Positions 552 to 58,560 of a DNA stretch of 64,000 nucleotides are shown here, piece after piece. Source of the stretch: Carposina sasakii (Eukaryota > Arthropoda > Insecta > Lepidoptera > Carposinidae); contig CP053169.1 in assembly GCA_014607495.2 (NCBI GenBank), forward strand, positions 9,548,001 to 9,612,000, written 5' to 3'. Under the pieces are notes generated by a model. The model saw only the letters and a program-made list of their open reading frames with translations. It did no database searches and was not told the origin of the DNA. The first letter of the stretch is position 1; every line of letters starts with the position of its first letter. Both the position numbers and the translations under genes were made by a program.

Positions 552-3500
552 CTGCAACGTTTTATATATTGTTAGTTAACAGAACGCTGATGGCGGGCAT
601 GTCATATGGTGTGTCATAGAAAATTTATTCTCAGCCACGGCGAAAAGTTAAAAAGCAATATTAAAAGGCACGAGCGTAGCTAGCGTCAAATATTTTGTTA
701 GAACAAGACACCGACACTTAGATAAAGATGAACTGTATAAATGGATTTGAATTACCGACTAAAAACGAAATTAAATGCAATCAGAAAAACTTATCAAGAG
801 TAGTTAGATTCGTCTTACGATACACCCTTTAAAGATTATGTAAGACACAATTTTTCTTTTGAAAAAAAAAGACAGGATTGACACTTTCCGCTGTTGTACT
901 GTATGTATCTACGTAGCTGCACTGAAAAAAGAAAAAAATCAGGTAATCATAACTACCTTATGCTCCTCCTCGTCCGCTGTCTCGGTGGCGCTACTGTCGT
1001 CGTCGCGCGGGCGGCGGAGGCGCGCGGGGGGCGGGGGCGGCGGAGGCGAGCCGCAGCTGTCCGCTGACGAGGTGCTGTCGGTGCTGCTGCCTCGCGAGGG
1101 AACACGCTCTGCTGGGGGCAGAGGGGGACATGTAGCACTGGAGACTACACACAGCCTAAGAGTCAGATGACACCAAAACGCGATGCGACGCTTTGATGTG
1201 CATCGCAACGTCACAAGGTGTATCGTAAAATCGTTGGCAGCACGAACGATTTTGCCACCGCGTGTTGCGTATTCGTAACGTAGAAAACGTTATTCAAATA
1301 ATATGTACTTTTGTTCGATTAGTAAATGAACTATATTTTGAGTCGCTCTATTAAATGACCCTTAGCTACTGGTCCGTTCTTCTGTCAAGGCTTGGCCGAA
1401 ATTACTGGACGTGGAATGCCTAAATACGGCATATAAGTGAGGAAGTTAAGGGAAAAACTAAGAGTACTCCTGGAAAATCGAGTAGAACGGGAATTCACGT
1501 AGCCAAGTCTAAATGAAAGCTAACCGTTCTGTTTAACTGTCCTAGTCTATAATATAAAATGCTTTATCCTAAAAAGCTGACAGATCAACACACAGTGTAA
1601 ACCGCTGATGTTAGAGACCTGAACCTGAAACTTAAAATTTCCCGAAATCTCAATGGAAACGAGAGAAACGGAAGTCCCAAACTGCAACAACCCTGAAAAC
1701 CAAAACCAGAACTCACCAGAAACCATGGTATCCAGCTGAAACTTCTTCCTGTACGTGAAGTAGAAGGCTTTCAGGCTGGCCGGGGTCTTCCCGCACGCGG
1801 TGGCCATGCGGTCCCACGCGGTCCCGTGGTCCCGGAGCATGGTCCTGAAGCGGGACACCTCTTCCTCCGAGGGTTCTGAGGGCGGCTCCCCCTGGTTCTC
1901 TATACGTCTAAGGATGCGCTTGAAGCAGTCTAAGCAGCATTTGCTTAGCTCGCTTGGTATTCCTGTTGATGGGTAGGGTTTGGGTAAAATGAGACGCTTA
2001 TCTGCTGTTGGCAACATAACTGGCAGCCATCTTTAATACACTAGATAAATGCAATTATATTCGTGAGAACGCTAGATAATAGCAGCAGTGCCCAATTCAG
2101 AAATCTGGAAGCCTTGGGCCAACCAAGGAGTCTAACAAAGAAGTGGTCTCTTGCCCCAGAACTGAATTAGTTTTTGTTTTTCAAAGTTTATATTTTGCCC
2201 CTCTTTTGTGGAAGCCCTGGTTGCCCTCTTCTAAATCCTGAGTAGCATTCACTATGGGTTCACCCACCACCGGGCCCTACACCCTCCACTGACCCTCGGA
2301 TCTGATAACTCATAATCGCAAAAACAAGCACTTGCACTACAATCGCCACAAGAAACCAGATCCGAGCACCCAGCACTCCTGAGTAGCAGTTACATATATA
2401 TCAAGTGTACGCTGACAAACTCATGGATGGCCGCTAACATAATGATAAGGTAAAACAAATGTTATACTTACGCAGCTCGTCCATAAGAGGCCTTTTCAGT
2501 TCTAGCGAGAGGTCGTGCCACCGCGGCGGCAGATGCCTCAGGCGCTTGGCACGCACCTTCGGCACGGGACACGTGGGCACCGGACACCGCGTGTACCGGG
2601 ATCTTACGTATCTGCCAGGGTTGGAGAACGAGACGTTGATAACGTATTTAATTGTACGATAAGCTGTGCTGATGCGAGGCTTTGCTAGAATACATCAGCT
2701 GCATCTCCTTCCGTGCATGTAGTAAGAGTGGGATAAAGAACTCAGTGGCGTTTTCTCAGCCGATAACAAGCAACTTGTAGTAACCTAGACCTAGGTCTAT
2801 TTTACTATTATGCTTATCTGGGTTAACAAAACATTGACCCAGTCCCTACTAGAATCTCTAAAGTCATGGCGTGGGTCCATGATGTCAACGAATTTGATTG
2901 GTGAATATCAAACACATCCATGGCACGTCTCTAGTGGAACGTGCTTCAGCATGGTCTTCCTACGCTGTAATGACAACATTACCTGCTATGACACGGCTCG
3001 CAGACCCTGGCGCCCGCAGCGTCCTCCTGCAGACCGTAGTAAGCGGCTCGCGAGCGGGACACCACCCTCGTGGCGCCCGCCGCGCCGCACACCGCGCAGT
3101 TGGTGGTGCACGCCACCGTGGCGGTTATGGTGGCCGTGGTAGGCGTGGGTATTGTTGAGGGGGTGGCCGTTCTTTCTGTCACCGCTGTAGGTAAAAGTGG
3201 TTGTGAATATCAACTAGTAGACTCTAGAAGGCTGAATACGTACCTTGATTTAAAAAAAGCAGTAGAAATGCGATAGCAAATGTGTACAATTGTAAGTAGA
3301 AGTACGTTACAATTATCGCGTTGGAATAATAAACGAATATTGTACAATTTTTGTTATCGCATTGCCGTTGCTAGATAGTAAGGCAATACGAAGTCGGGTT
3401 TGATTATCGAGCCAGTAGAGAGAGAAGTCTTCGAATATTGGCATGGTCAAAACCGGAGTAAATAGGAAAGGGTGTATAATTTTTTTTCAATATTAGTTGG

Positions 3501-12500: not shown

Positions 12501-15500
12501 AGTCCAAAATACAAACTGCGGTCACCAACCCGCCTGCCCAGCGTGGTGACTATGGGCAAATACCCCCCATGGCAGTCTTGTGGCGTGCCCTGGGGGAGGC
12601 CTACGTCCAGCAGTGGACTGTAGTAGGCTGATGATGATGATGATGTACTTTCTAATAATCGTGTTCACTTAAGCACTCTAGCATAGCAAAACACATGTGA
12701 ATAAAAGAGCAGTACCACATCCCCGGTCAAACAACGAACCAATGCGGAGAATTATGTTGACCCAACCCCTGGGGGTGCGGGGTTTGGAGTTGTATTATCT
12801 TTTTCGTACTATACCACTAATATACTACTTTTACATTAACAACCAGGTAAACTAACTTGAATGGTAATAGCGATAAACAGCGATTGTTATTATTTAACCA
12901 CCTCTTCAAATTAGACACCCGTTAAACACGACATTTGACAGCAAAATGTATCGAACATCTATCAAATTGATCAATATGCATATGTCGTGGCCATATTGTT
13001 AAATTGATCATTTCATGAAATGGTCGAGCATTTCATGAAGTGGTCGCATTTCATGAAGTGGCCAATTCAATTTGACCAGATCGTTAAATCGTCTACATTT
13101 CACGATTTTGTCATCCACGTTTGGCCAAATCGTATTAACAGGGTGTCCATAAAATCCGAATGTGGTAATAGCTTACACCATATATAAGTATACCATAAGG
13201 TATGATGGTATGATTTTTTTTGCTATTATTTATGTGATATTTTCACAATATAATATTTAAAAACATAAAAGACTTTACAAAAGCGATTCGCATCTGGCAC
13301 ATCGCCGGACGCTGCCTGGGCACGCTCGCTCCGCTCGCTCGGCTCGTGCGTCATTTGTCATAGTCTAACCTAACCTAACCTATCGTAATCTAAGGTTTTT
13401 GTTTAACAATATTATTATAAACCACCATTAAGTCTAATATACATTATACAATATAACACACTATCCGTGAACTTCTTCTGCATAGTCACCCTACTCTCTT
13501 TAATTTGTTTTATAACCTAAAAAGAAAAATCCGCCATCTTCACACATAAATAAAACGCGCGCAGCGCCTCTACCGGTGATTCATGTAACTATTTTACGAT
13601 ATGATCAATAATCTTGACCACTTCATGAAATGATCGGGCGTTTAGTTGCCCATATCGAGAAACGATTTTTAATCATCGATCTGCCCAAACCATATCATGA
13701 TGTGGCCAATAGACAGTAGAAATTTTCATGAAATGCGACCATTTCATGAAATGCTCGACCATTTCATGAAATGATCAATTCTACGATATGGCCACGACAC
13801 ATATAAGTACATAATCGATTCTCATACGTGATCGATTCTGGCCGCCACAAATGTTTTAATTATTTTATTAGCATGGCCTTAAATGTATAAACATGAGACA
13901 TGCAGCATGCTTTACCTATAAACGATAAAACGCTACGCTGGCCTTACCCTAAATTCCCGGTAAAAGCTCAAATTTATCCTCCTTCTCCTAAAAAAAAAAC
14001 TACAAACGCGAATTCCGACGCGAGCATTGCTACTATTTGAACATCATTAAAATCCAGCCAATTAATACGGTGGGGTAGCTACCCCGGGGTAATTAACGCG
14101 AACAAACCCTGGGGGGAGGGGGAAGCCAATTAATCTGGTATGGATGTTATGGACAGTAAATTAATATGTGTTCGGCGTAGATTTCAGTTTTAAGATATGT
14201 AATAGGTACTTACTGAAGGAAGAGTTAAAACTAGGGGCGCAAATCAAATTCTATGTATTTTTCTTGCAATCAAGCCTGGGCATGCGGACCCAGTCATTAA
14301 CACAGTCCATCCAATATTTCTTAGGCTTTTTTTAAATTATATTAAATAGGCTTACGTTTGACCACAACGCGCCTGACGGTAAGCAGCGTTGTTGGTTTTC
14401 CTCTTTTCTTATAGTCATCCACATGACCAACGCTAACCGTGGTACCTAATATGAGTTTCGAAAATGATCATGATGGCATGAAGATGATGATGATGATCCA
14501 CATGACCAACGCTGTGTTTTCAGTTGCAAAGTTTTGTCATAGTTATTTCCTCGCTCTCGAATCAAATCATCTTTATTATCAAAGCTAATATACAAGTTTT
14601 TTAAACATACCAAAGTATTCCGTCATTAGAGGGAAATGTATACAGGGTGATTTTTGGTCGTCAACGTTCCCGAAAACTACGGAATCTCCTCATCATCACG
14701 ATCATTTTTCTCCATGGAAGCATACCTGGGAAGTGTCTGGTTTCCAAAATATTAGGGTCCAAAGTTGAGTAAATAGACTGCGTTTTTCTGCATAAATGCT
14801 TAAATAAATATTAAAATAAATATTTGTCTATAAAAAAACTAACATAAACACTAGACACTATAAATTTCGCACGATCAAGGAATTTAAAAATTAAAAAAAA
14901 AAAAATCCCAGCATTTTTTTTGGCATAAACTTACTTTATTTCATGTATAGAATACGTACCCTTCGTTAAAGGTGGCCACAAAAAAACACCCTGTATATAA
15001 CTTATGATACCATTAGATGCCCCAATACTAAACAAGCAAACAAAAATTGGCAGTACAAAGATTTTAACCCACAGCCAATCAAACATTTCTCTATAGTCGG
15101 TAAGGTATTTTTTCCTCTATTTCCCTCTGCTCTCACTTCCTCAATTGGGCTGCTTTTAATTAAGTCAATTAGAAAGATGGGCCTCGCCGCTGCTGTTTGC
15201 GCAAAAATCCAAACAAGACAGCAGAGATGTTGCGTAGGGAGGACGACTGTCGATGATTTTTATCGATAAATTATGTGATCCTGCAGTTCTGGCTACCACA
15301 TTTCAAGAACACAGCCGTATGTATATGTATGTAAATTATAACTTGTATAAATATCGATCTACATTCTCCATTTTACTTGGTTTAGGTTAGGTATCCATTT
15401 ATATTCCTCAGATGTTAAGTGATAAATACTAGATAGGTATTTTAAAACTAGTTATGAATATTAAGGTCAGGTTATCAATCTTTGACAAACAATATGATAA

Positions 15501-53814: not shown

Positions 53815-54010
53815 ATGGGCAAAAATGTATGGGAGAGTCCCCACCGACAAATAACGATCAGACGTATATCGTTGGAGAACTCTTTTTGTGACTATCGATT
53901 GTTACTATAAGAGTGATTCTCAAGTTAGTTGTGTGAAGAAAGTTATAGCTCAAAGAATTCAGATTCTTTTTGCTTAAAAGTAGTACTTATTCAAGTGTTT
54001 TGTTAGTTAC
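53815..54010. repeat. Outer inverted repeat, left arm
   Basis: ACCGACAAATAACGATCAGA, TATATCGTTGGAGAACTCTT and AGAAAGTTATAGCTCAAAGA recur in reverse order and orientation at 58375-58560. Together the arms enclose the MITE and palindrome at 54.1-58.3 kb. Confidence 0.65.
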
Positions 54011-55250
54011 CTGCGAGGTATCAGCCTTTAAACGCTGGTTCTGGTACATTTCTAAATGATATGGACAACCCATAAAATGTATTTGAAAGACTTATGTATA
54101 CAGGTGTTGTCTCAACTTTGGCTCTTAATATCTTGTAGTCCGGGAGGTAGCGTTGCATTTTACAAAATCATTTCTGGTCGATTGATTAATGTCATAACGT
54201 ACTTTTCATGGATAGTCATTGAGTAACTCGAACGTCAGCAGCTCCAGTAAGGGTGGGGAGAGAATTTCAAGTATGTCAAAAAAAAAAAAAAAAAATTATT
54301 TCTGTTCGTCCGAAAATTTGCACATCAGTAGTTTTAACAATAATAATAATTATAGAAACCGTCAGCTGTGAAGAAAATGGCGGGTTGTACGTCAGCAGGT
54401 TATATATACCTATATTAAAAATAATTATTTTCATTTCATTTCCGGTCGAATGAAACTGATACAGGTTATTCTTTATGCTATAAAAATGATAAAAAAAAGC
54501 GTCAGCAGATCTATCGATAGGGGTAAAATCGTCAGCAAGGGGATTATATGTGCCGAGCAGGTATTCAATCCGAGTATGCATTAACCATCTATATTATTCA
54601 ACTGACGACCTTCTCCCTGTCAATTACTCTGCTGATTCTTTTCTTCATTATATACATTGTTCAAATTATGCTTACGATCAATTTTCAAGCGACCTGAAAT
54701 CAATTTGATTATAAAAATTCTCATTTTTTAGTCCAGTCAAATTAGCTACAAAAATAGGGGTAAGGTTACATTAATTCGCACCTTGCTAAAAATTTGCATG
54801 AATGTTGGGAACACCATTACATACAATTTGTCAATTATCCACATCAATCCAATGTGTGGAAAAATTTTTATTGAAGGTCAAATGTTGCAAAAATCGGTTT
54901 TTGAGTTTTCCAGCTAAACGGTAAGTTCTATCATGAAAATAGGTGAGACAAAAATTATTCATCATCCAATTATCTACAAAAATTGTTCATACACTTTTTT
55001 TCCTAAGAATCGCCATTTCGGAGATATAGCGATGCAAAATGTTGAAAAGTTGTGTTATTCATAATATGCACACGTTTCCGCGCCACCCGTGAGGTAGTGT
55101 ACATGACGCGTTTTTTTTACGTGGTTTCCCCGGTAGGCCTATTCCACGATCTATTGTGGTTCTGTTGAGTTAAAAAACTATTTTATTAAATTTAAAATGG
55201 TACTATAGTAAATGACAAGAGCGGTGTAAGTAATGAGTAAATTGAAAAAA

Positions 55251-56090
55251 TTATTCGTCTGATAGATACTCGTTTAATGGAACATAATCCATACTGTCTT
55301 GCACTTCTTCTCCTTCTTCTTCTTCTTCTTCCTGCTGGGTACAAATAAATTGTTCAAAGAGCGATGCATCAGATGTCTCCTCGCCTATATCGTAAGAATC
55401 CTCTTCTTCTGGCGATTGAACATTGGAGCACGATTGGCCTCGACAACTGATACATGCTAATGAACAAAACAACCCAACTTTTTTACAGCCGCATTTAGCA
55501 TTACACCCCGTTTTGCAATTGCAAAAAATTGAATTGAGGAGTTTTTCCGGTGCAGGAGGGAGTAAAGTCTGAACTGGTTCCAATATATTGTCAATTAACT
55601 TCCAACCCCAGTCTTCTGGGTTTAGTTTATTACCGAGCCATACTTGAACTTGATAATATACCCGAAATAGATGTTGATAAGCAGAAGCAGAGGTTGGAGG
55701 AAGACAAGCTAATTGTACTTGTTTTTTTTTATGCGTATTTTTTGCAAAAGATAAGTATCGAAACTTATCTAAGCACGTAATTTTTTTTGGAGCTCCGTAA
55801 ACGGAAAGAAGAAAGCGAATTCCGTTGGTGTTACAGCTTGTGGAGTAGAGGTACTTTCTTTGAAAACGTCAGCACAATCAACTAAATCTTGTCTCTCAAA
55901 CAATTTCAAAACTGATTTTTTACCTCTCCTGAAAAATGCTGATGTCGTGTCGCAACCAGTTACTGCATGTAGAAATAAGATATGATTTTGGCATTTTGAA
56001 AAAGCAGATAAACTCTTGGATGAATATATTTTTGATTGTTGTTCAGCTTTCCCAGGTTTTAAAAATAAATAATTTTTTCGGTTGGCGTTC
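55251..56090 (-). pseudogene. 3' half of FEN/XPG-like nuclease plus CXC-domain gene, left-arm copy (broken)
   Basis: Read on the minus strand from the arm's inner edge: NANRKNYLF, KAEQQSKIYSSKSLSAFSKC, HILFLHAVTGCDTTSAFFRR, GKKSVLKLFERQDLVDCADV, then a frame break near 55833, where one T is missing relative to the other copy. Downstream, 55583-55251 gives EPVQTLLPPAPEKLL, the Cys-rich CNCKTGCNAKCGCKK and CISCRGQSCSN (tesmin/TSO1-like CXC), then an acidic tail to a stop. LHAVTGCD...GKKSVLK resembles the GCDY...GxGxKxAxxL region of FEN1/XPG nucleases. Pseudogene: no 5' half. Confidence 0.75.
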
Positions 56091-56101
56091 GGCGCAAGCT
56101 G

Positions 56102-57051
56102 ATAATGATGCTGATGTCCTGATAGTTGAAACAGCAATAGAACAATTTAACTCGACAAATCCAACTATTGTTGTTGGTGAAGATGTTGATGTTGGTATTA
56201 CTTACTGCTCGAACGCCAACCGAAAAAATTATTTATTTTTTAAACCTGGGGAAAGCTGAACAACAATCAAAAATATATTCATCCAAGAGTTTATCTGCTT
56301 TTTCAAAATGCCAAAATCATATCTTATTTCTACATGCAGTAACTGGTTGCGACACGACATCAGCATTTTTCAGGAGAGGTAAAAAATCAGTTTTGAAATT
56401 GTTTGAGAGACAAGATTTAGTTGATTGTGCTGACGTTTTCAAAGAAAGTACCTCTACTCCACAAGCTGTAATCACCAACGGAATTCGCTTTCTTCTTTCC
56501 GTTTACGGAGCTCCAAAAAAAATTACGTGCTTAGATAAGTTTCGATACTTATCTTTTGCAAAAAATACGCATAAAAAAAAACAAGTACAATTAGCTTGTC
56601 TTCCTCCAACCTCTGCTTCTGCTTATCAACATCTATTTCGGGTATATTATCAAGTTCAAGTAGGCTCGGTAATAAACTAAACCCAGAAGACTGGGGTTGG
56701 AAGTTAATTGACAATATATTGGAACCAGTTCAGACTTTACTCCCTCCTGCACCGGAAAAACTCCTCAATTCAATTTTTTGCAATTGCAAAACGGGGTGTA
56801 ATGCTAAATGCGGCTGTAAAAAAGTTAGGTTGTTTTGTTCATTAGCATGTATCAGTTGTCGAGGCCAATCGTGCTCCAATGTTCAATCGCCAGAAGAAGA
56901 GGATTCTTACGATATAGGCGAGGAGACATCTGATGCATCGCTCTTTGAACAATTTATTTGTACCCAGCAGGAAGAAGAAGAAGAAGAAGGAGAAGAAGTG
57001 CAAGACAGTATGGATTATGTTCCATTAAACGAGTATCTATCAGACGAATAA
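56102..57051 (+). pseudogene. FEN/XPG-like nuclease plus CXC-domain gene, loop and right-arm copy (broken)
   Basis: The loop (56102-56205) encodes ADNDADVLIVETAIEQF and NPTIVVGEDVDV, like the acidic metal-binding parts of FEN/XPG and other PIN-fold nucleases (DAD...; EDVDV). The frame shifts near 56190; the reading then continues as LVLLTARTPTEKIIYF, HAVTGCDTTSAFFRRGKK and beyond. A second break near 56664 lacks a T that the left copy has. From 56668 the CXC block and acidic tail run to TAA at 57049-57051. The 5' half, expected upstream, is replaced by the inverted left arm. Function of the intact protein is unknown; a role in transposition is likely. Confidence 0.75.
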
Positions 57052-58374
57052 TTTTTTCAATTTACTCGTTACTTACACCGCTCTTGTCATTTACTATAGT
57101 ACATTTTAAATTTAATAAAATAGTTTTTTAACTCAACAGAACCACAATAGATCGTGGAATAGGCCTACCGGGGAACCACGTAAAAAAAACGCGTCATGTA
57201 CACTACCTCACGGGTGGCGCGGAAACGTGTGCATATTATGAATAACACAACTTTTTCAACATTTTGCATCGCTATATCTCCGAAATGGCGATTCTTAGGA
57301 AAAAAAGTGTATGAACAATTTTTGTAGATAATTGGATGATGAATAATTTTTGTCTCACCTATTTTCATGATAGAACTTACCGTTTAGCTGGAAAACTCAA
57401 AAAACCGATTTTTGCAACATTTGACCTTCAATAAAAATTTTCCACACATTGGATTGATGTGGATAATTGACAAATTGTATGTAATGGTGTTCCCAACATT
57501 CATGCAAATTTTTAGCAAGGTGCGAATTAATGTAACCTTACCCTATTTTTGTAGCTAATTTGACTGGACTAAAAAATGAGAATTTTATAATCAAATTGAT
57601 TTCAGGTCGCTTGAAAATTGATCGTAAGCATAATTTGAACAATGTATATAATGAAGAAAAGAATCAGCAGAGTAATTGACAGGGAGAAGGTCGTCAGTTG
57701 AATAATATAGATGGTTAATGCATACTCGGATTGAATACCTGCTCGGCACATATAATCCCCTTGCTGACGATTTTACCCTATCGATAGATCTGCTGACGCT
57801 TTTTTTTATCATTTTTATAGCATAAAGAATAACCTGTATCAGTTTCATTCGACCGGAAATGAAATGAAAATAATTATTTTTAATATAGGTATATATAACC
57901 TGCTGACGTACAACCCGCCATTTTCTTCACAGCTGACGGTTTCTATAATTATTATTATTGTTAAAAACTACTGATGTGCAAATTTTCGGACGAACAGAAA
58001 TAATTTTGGATTTTTTTTTTTGACATACTTGAAATTCTCTCCCCACTCGCCCCACCCTGAGTGCGCCTGCTGACGCTCAATTCAATTGATGTCCTCATCT
58101 AAACTATCAATTGCACTCAAAATCGATCGGCCTAAAATCACCATCAAAAATGCAACGCTACCTCCCGGACTATTGGAAACCAGACACTTCCAGTTATGCT
58201 TTCATGGAGAAAAACGATCATGATGACGAGAAAATGCTTAGTATTCGCAAACGTTGACGACAAAAAACACCTGTATATTCCTATTACGTAATAGACTATT
58301 TTTATCAATATTTTATCGTTTAATTTTAATAATATATTTTTAAGATCTCTTAATACTTAAAAAAAAGTACTTGC

Positions 58375-58560
58375 CTTAAAGTAAAAAAGGAAAACATTTT
58401 GTTTTTTTTTTTCTATTTTTAAAAAATTTCTTTTAGCTATAACTTTTTTCAGAGAACGATTTCAAGATCGCCCCAATAGAAACAATTGATAGTCACAAAA
58501 AGAGCTCTCCAACGATATACGTCTGGTCGTTATTTGTCGGTGGAGACATTTTGCCCATCT
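58375..58560. repeat. Outer inverted repeat, right arm
   Basis: Reverse-complement match to 53815-54010: GTCACAAAAAGAGCTCTCCA, ACGATATACGTCTGGTCGTT, ATTTGTCGGTGGAGACATTT, with TAGCTATAACTTTTTTCAGA further in. Confidence 0.65.

Follow-up and report, generated by a model that had tools for sequence, protein, structure and literature searches.

The window analysed here, a 64,000-nucleotide stretch of contig CP053169.1 of Carposina sasakii (positions 9,548,001 to 9,612,000), contains at 54136..58172 a dead, hairpin-shaped transposon copy, a variant of a known transposon group in which two opposed arms bearing the 3' half of a transposase gene face each other across a short loop. A sequence-only reading had described a 4-kb palindrome with 26-bp terminal repeats, a TTG duplication and arms of about 1.85 kb around a 120-base loop holding the preceding part of the gene, and had taken it for a transposon half duplicated in inverted form across that loop; the form so described is correct, the arms being ~1.84 kb long and the loop 118 bp. 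The features are as follows, with CGTCAGCAG denoting a 9-base motif considered below.

54136..58172 (no strand): full extent of the fold-back element (4,037 bp)
54133..54135 (+): TTG target-site duplication, left copy; single site in paralogues
54136..54161 (+): left terminal inverted repeat, 26 bp, identical in inverted form to 58147-58172
54162..54252 (+): left-end-specific, unmirrored subterminal segment, aligning poorly to the right end; CGTCAGCAG at 54233
54233..54241 (+): CGTCAGCAG motif of the left end, 97 bp from the tip; more copies at 54390 and 54500
54253..56091 (-): left arm, apparently an inverted copy of the transposase gene 3' half with 3' noncoding DNA
55251..56091 (-): gene remnant of the left arm, mirrored and frameshifted; 205-codon open stretch up to a stop (tblastn with P0215)
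56092..56209 (+): unique loop, 118 bp, encoding a nuclease part (DNDADVLIV...GEDVDV)
56204..57051 (+): frameshifted gene remnant of the right arm, covering the GCDTTS part of the nuclease and the CXC-like tail (open frames; tblastn with P0215)
56210..58046 (+): right arm, transposase gene 3' half with 3' noncoding DNA
58047..58146 (-): right-end-specific subterminal segment, different from the left end
58067..58075 (-): CGTCAGCAG motif of the right end, 97 bp from the other tip; more copies at 57790 and 57900, inverted
58147..58172 (-): right terminal inverted repeat, 26 bp, paired with the left repeat
58173..58175 (+): TTG target-site duplication, right copy; single site in paralogues

The terminal inverted repeats (TIRs), of sequence TAGTCCGGGAGGTAGCGTTGCATTTT, are perfect, and the arms together occupy 3.7 of the 4.0 kb, so that inverted repeats make up nearly the whole element, as in fold-back elements generally. 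TIRs apart, the outermost 117 bp on the left and 126 bp on the right are not mirrored. This difference between the ends (54162-54252 as against 58047-58146), which had gone unmentioned in the sequence-only reading, argues against a simple mirror artefact. From its orientation the right arm would represent the gene's native 3' half, attached to its own end, and the left arm an inverted copy joined to a different end; the right subterminal segment is then presumably the original gene-3' end and the left one a remnant of the gene-5' end of the parent.

The element sits inside a short repeat, whose interrupted copy ends in ACAGGTG/CACCTGT at about 54100 and 58274 and of which blastn finds three further copies in the window, near 14747, 32685 and 45623 on the minus strand. 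In all three paralogues the insertion site is uninterrupted and its triplet single, being TTG in two of them and TTA in the third. The 3-bp duplication is therefore supported by undivided sites and not simply read off the ends. The four copies of the short repeat have ends like ACAGGGTG/CACCCTGT adjoining TA, and the repeat is possibly a mariner-type miniature element; a repeat finder with a 12-bp minimum gave no inverted-repeat call for these short ends. The interrupted copy is also internally shorter than its paralogues.

An alignment of the two arms with each other, begun 10 bp outside the arm, shows 8 substitutions and 13 indels. An A-run or the outer junction accounts for 5 of the substitutions and for the sole 6-bp indel; the ~1.84 kb away from that junction contain 3 substitutions and 12 single-base indels. 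Most of these single-base indels adjoin an identical base and resemble residual long-read error, and so the true divergence of the arms is probably ~0.2% and the fold-back event young. The central 901 bases fold as RNA with a predicted energy of -694.9 kcal/mol, compared with a mean of -191.6 (standard deviation 8.1) for 20 shuffles, i.e. a palindrome far beyond chance, and a transcript across it would be expected to make an almost perfect hairpin.

The 9-mer CGTCAGCAG occurs six times in the 64 kb, where ~0.19 occurrences are expected, and all six lie inside the element, three at each end. Since 54390/57900 and 54500/57790 are mirror copies, the independent sites number four. The outermost pair lies equally far from both tips despite differing surroundings, as would be expected of a transposase-binding motif, and CGTCAGCAG is a putative motif of this kind.

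The open frames of both arms encode the same C-terminal half of a gene. The joined fragment as query yields 141 protein matches at E<=0.001 among 717 candidates, and longer queries reach 939-residue and then still longer relatives, at least 196 and at least 263 proteins among the best 7,993 and 7,991 candidates scored; the relatives described here are those among the 120 matches listed for each of the three queries. For the fragment these include an Andrena cerasifolii (bee) protein, 77% identical across 91% of the query, and a Chilo suppressalis gene model whose end matches at 88% over 44%. Many relatives in the longer-query searches are 1,450-1,575 residues long. The relatives with a named organism, many having none, are mainly from insects (beetles, bees, wasps, ants, moths, butterflies, aphids, whitefly, thrips, fly and stick insect) and spiders, together with the octocoral Dendronephthya and one rust fungus record, Austropuccinia. 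In a midpoint-rooted FastTree of the C-terminal region, printed without support values and containing the window copy and 70 of the 179 covering proteins, the window copy groups with bee, fly and wasp proteins, with beetle, moth and spider proteins adjacent, a placement that would fit horizontal transfer. The exact 26-bp end has no match in IMG/VR, and no relative was confirmed in viral contigs (62 pattern matches) or prokaryote genomes (38), which carries little weight as these collections are not meant for insects.

The sequence-only reading had assigned the gene FEN/XPG-like motifs and a C-terminal CXC domain. The former assignment holds. Structure prediction models the nuclease domain of relatives as a FEN1/EXO1/XPG 5'-nuclease, and this nuclease fold places it in the FEN/XPG 5'-nuclease superfamily. 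Seven presumed metal-ligand acids are kept in nearly every covering row of a 42-row alignment (P0003 numbering): D61 and D101 each in 37 rows with gaps in the other 5, D174 in 41 (one E), D176 and D199 in all 42, and D201 and D256 each in 41 (one N). These we take to correspond to D34, D86, E158, E160, D179, D181 and D233 of human FEN1. The CXC domain stands in part, as a CXC-like tail of nine cysteines, each present in at least 37 of the 42 rows, and several relatives are titled "Tesmin/TSO1-like CXC domain-containing" in UniRef; but the Pfam CXC family is matched neither by the fragment nor among the 16 families returned by a scan of 22 relatives. Longer relatives carry, in the same protein as the nuclease, an RNase-H-like, DDE-like transposase core that is supported by the structural model. 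Pfam otherwise gives for the gene fragment only VESA1_N at E 3.3, which is chance level, and nothing for the three open frames taken singly; searching the PDB by sequence was likewise negative, with the fragment at E<=1 and with the profile at E<=10. Pfam DUF6589, a family of unknown function, is weakly matched by 8 of the 22 long relatives in alignment A1 (best 5.1e-5), which suggests that this family may belong to a transposase; a literature search found nothing pairing DUF6589 with a transposon.

The nuclease of AcademX elements is of the XPG type. In excerpts of PMC10045372, which speak simply of a "nuclease", AcademX duplications are 3 or 4 bp and those of AcademH 9 or 10, a difference tied to the encoded nuclease and helicase; excerpts of the other papers cited here give a mean length of 5,565 bp for bivalve Academ elements (PMC10294476) and report Academ copies solely as truncated in an aphid (PMC9783078). 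The intact parent of the window copy would be an element of perhaps ~5.7 kb encoding a single protein of ~1,450-1,550 residues with N-terminal Cys/His motifs, a DDE core, the FEN/XPG 5'-nuclease and the nine-cysteine CXC-like tail. Because nuclease, DDE-like core, duplication and inferred parental size agree with AcademX, the label "AcademX-type" is very likely appropriate, on the basis of domain plan and duplication length. The suggestion of an Academ derivative is upheld to this extent, in that the longer relatives join an XPG-like region to a DDE-like core as expected of Academ; a literature search returned no paper joining Academ and XPG as whole words. With good confidence, the window element can be described as a non-autonomous derivative of an AcademX-type DNA transposon, young and of fold-back form.

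How it came to be folded back is less certain, and we lean only slightly toward fold-back gap repair. After excision, repair of the gap would have copied the element inward starting at the gene-3' end; the new strand would have folded back at the loop and then copied itself outward, and the product would have been joined to the surviving left end near a GGGTGGGG tract, so that an inverted copy of the 3' half took the place of the original 5' half. The outer junction does lie within GGGTGGGG, which is found on both sides and is a possible microhomology; no comparable homology is evident at the loop. Defective P-type copies have been ascribed to failed gap repair, slippage and template switching in excerpts of PMC4168063. 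Intact relatives presumably move by cut-and-paste, the DDE core cutting and joining DNA, and second-strand or flap trimming may be the task of the fused nuclease. Movement of the window copy, if any, would require the transposase of an intact relative to bind the 26-bp TIR and the CGTCAGCAG sites kept at both ends, and such mobilisation in trans is reasonably likely.

Alternatively, the derivative could have arisen by recombination or joint deletion between two head-to-head AcademX-type copies, which could yield the same outer left and right ends and mirrored arms. This route would however require nearly identical copies with different breakpoints, and the 3 substitutions between the arms, together with a left arm that stops short of its own end, fit one template better than two copies; we regard it as unlikely. 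It is also rather doubtful that the element represents a multi-copy family with established long TIRs, in which a mirrored gene half is passed from element to element. Long inverted repeats are known from the Foldback-like Galileo of the P superfamily (PMC4168063, in excerpt), but blastn (E<=1e-3) finds no second copy of the element in the 64-kb window. Excerpts of papers on mariner and Bari elements (PMC4678618, PMC4877112) contain no palindromic precedent.

A different kind of proposal concerns what the hairpin might do. By analogy with maize Mu killer, where, as described in PMC3440606, mudrA is partly duplicated in inverted form with two TIRA-region copies, an ~4 kb hairpin RNA is proposed and the parent is silenced, the locus could be a host-useful or self-limiting source of hairpin RNA that silences intact relatives. 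In keeping with such a role, the element measures ~4 kb, repeats a portion of a transposase gene in inverted form between two transposon ends and has a stable predicted hairpin. In Drosophila simulans, selfish genes are suppressed by hairpin RNA loci (PMC10317233). The element may nevertheless be too young for any function, and the proposal is improbable as it stands. A natural trigger of RNA interference, TIR-bounded, potentially mobile and bearing 1.84-kb arms of the parental transposase gene, in which transcription from a flank would give long double-stranded RNA and silence intact AcademX copies, is to be viewed as a long shot; if true, it would be an animal counterpart of Mu killer able to spread by means of the very transposase that it silences. 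Finally, an inverted read (from a missed adapter or a fold-back read) assembled as a palindrome is very unlikely, even though the single-base indels, 12 of the 15 arm differences away from the outer junction, are like those of imperfectly polished long reads, since mirrored flanks, or one end mirrored in full, would be expected of such an artefact, and here the ends differ, each has its TIR, and the flanks jointly form one interrupted repeat with a clean duplication.

Other features of the window include an older second inverted repeat just outside the element on both sides (53837-53957 and 58428-58547; 121 bp, 84% identical), and two further inverted-repeat pairs, 20106-20415/27659-27971 and 30698-31051/41636-41962, of about 300-350 bp, 92-95% complementary and 7 and 11 kb apart. 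An open frame at 1547-2032 (-) matches Myb/SANT weakly, at E 0.0014 and short of the Pfam cut-off, and is possibly an exon of a co-repressor gene.

The fold-back element is a clean and recent case of the conversion of a large cut-and-paste transposon to palindromic form, probably by a single step, and it leads to a widespread protein family, mostly unnamed in databases, that combines a P-element-like DDE core, a FEN/XPG nuclease and a CXC-like tail. Should hairpins of this kind be transcribed, the repair accidents of a transposon could found its own silencing.

Among known systems, AcademX shares with the window family an element-encoded nuclease, a DDE-type core and a duplication of 3 bp (3 or 4 bp in AcademX; PMC10045372), and the inferred full length is near the 5,565-bp bivalve Academ average (PMC10294476). 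The window copy differs in being palindromic and without its 5' half, and a CXC-like tail goes unmentioned for Academ in the excerpts; the likeness is by description. Structure comparison using the model of a relative suggests that the DDE core with a helical insertion is shared with the P-element, hAT and RAG1 transposases, unlike which the window family fuses the core to a FEN/XPG nuclease and a CXC-like tail, its profile finding no sequence match in the PDB (E<=10). Galileo, of the P superfamily and fold-back type, is comparable in its very long inverted repeats and in having defective copies ascribed to repair failures (PMC4168063); it belongs to another transposase family and, in the same excerpts, makes 7- or 8-bp duplications, and the mirrored DNA of the window element is instead a gene-3' half with its noncoding tail. 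Maize Mu killer is similar in its ~4 kb size, its partly duplicated, inverted transposase gene and its two terminal-repeat copies (PMC3440606); in contrast to the window element, for which any transcription or silencing is hypothetical, it derives from a plant Mutator element and silences its parent.
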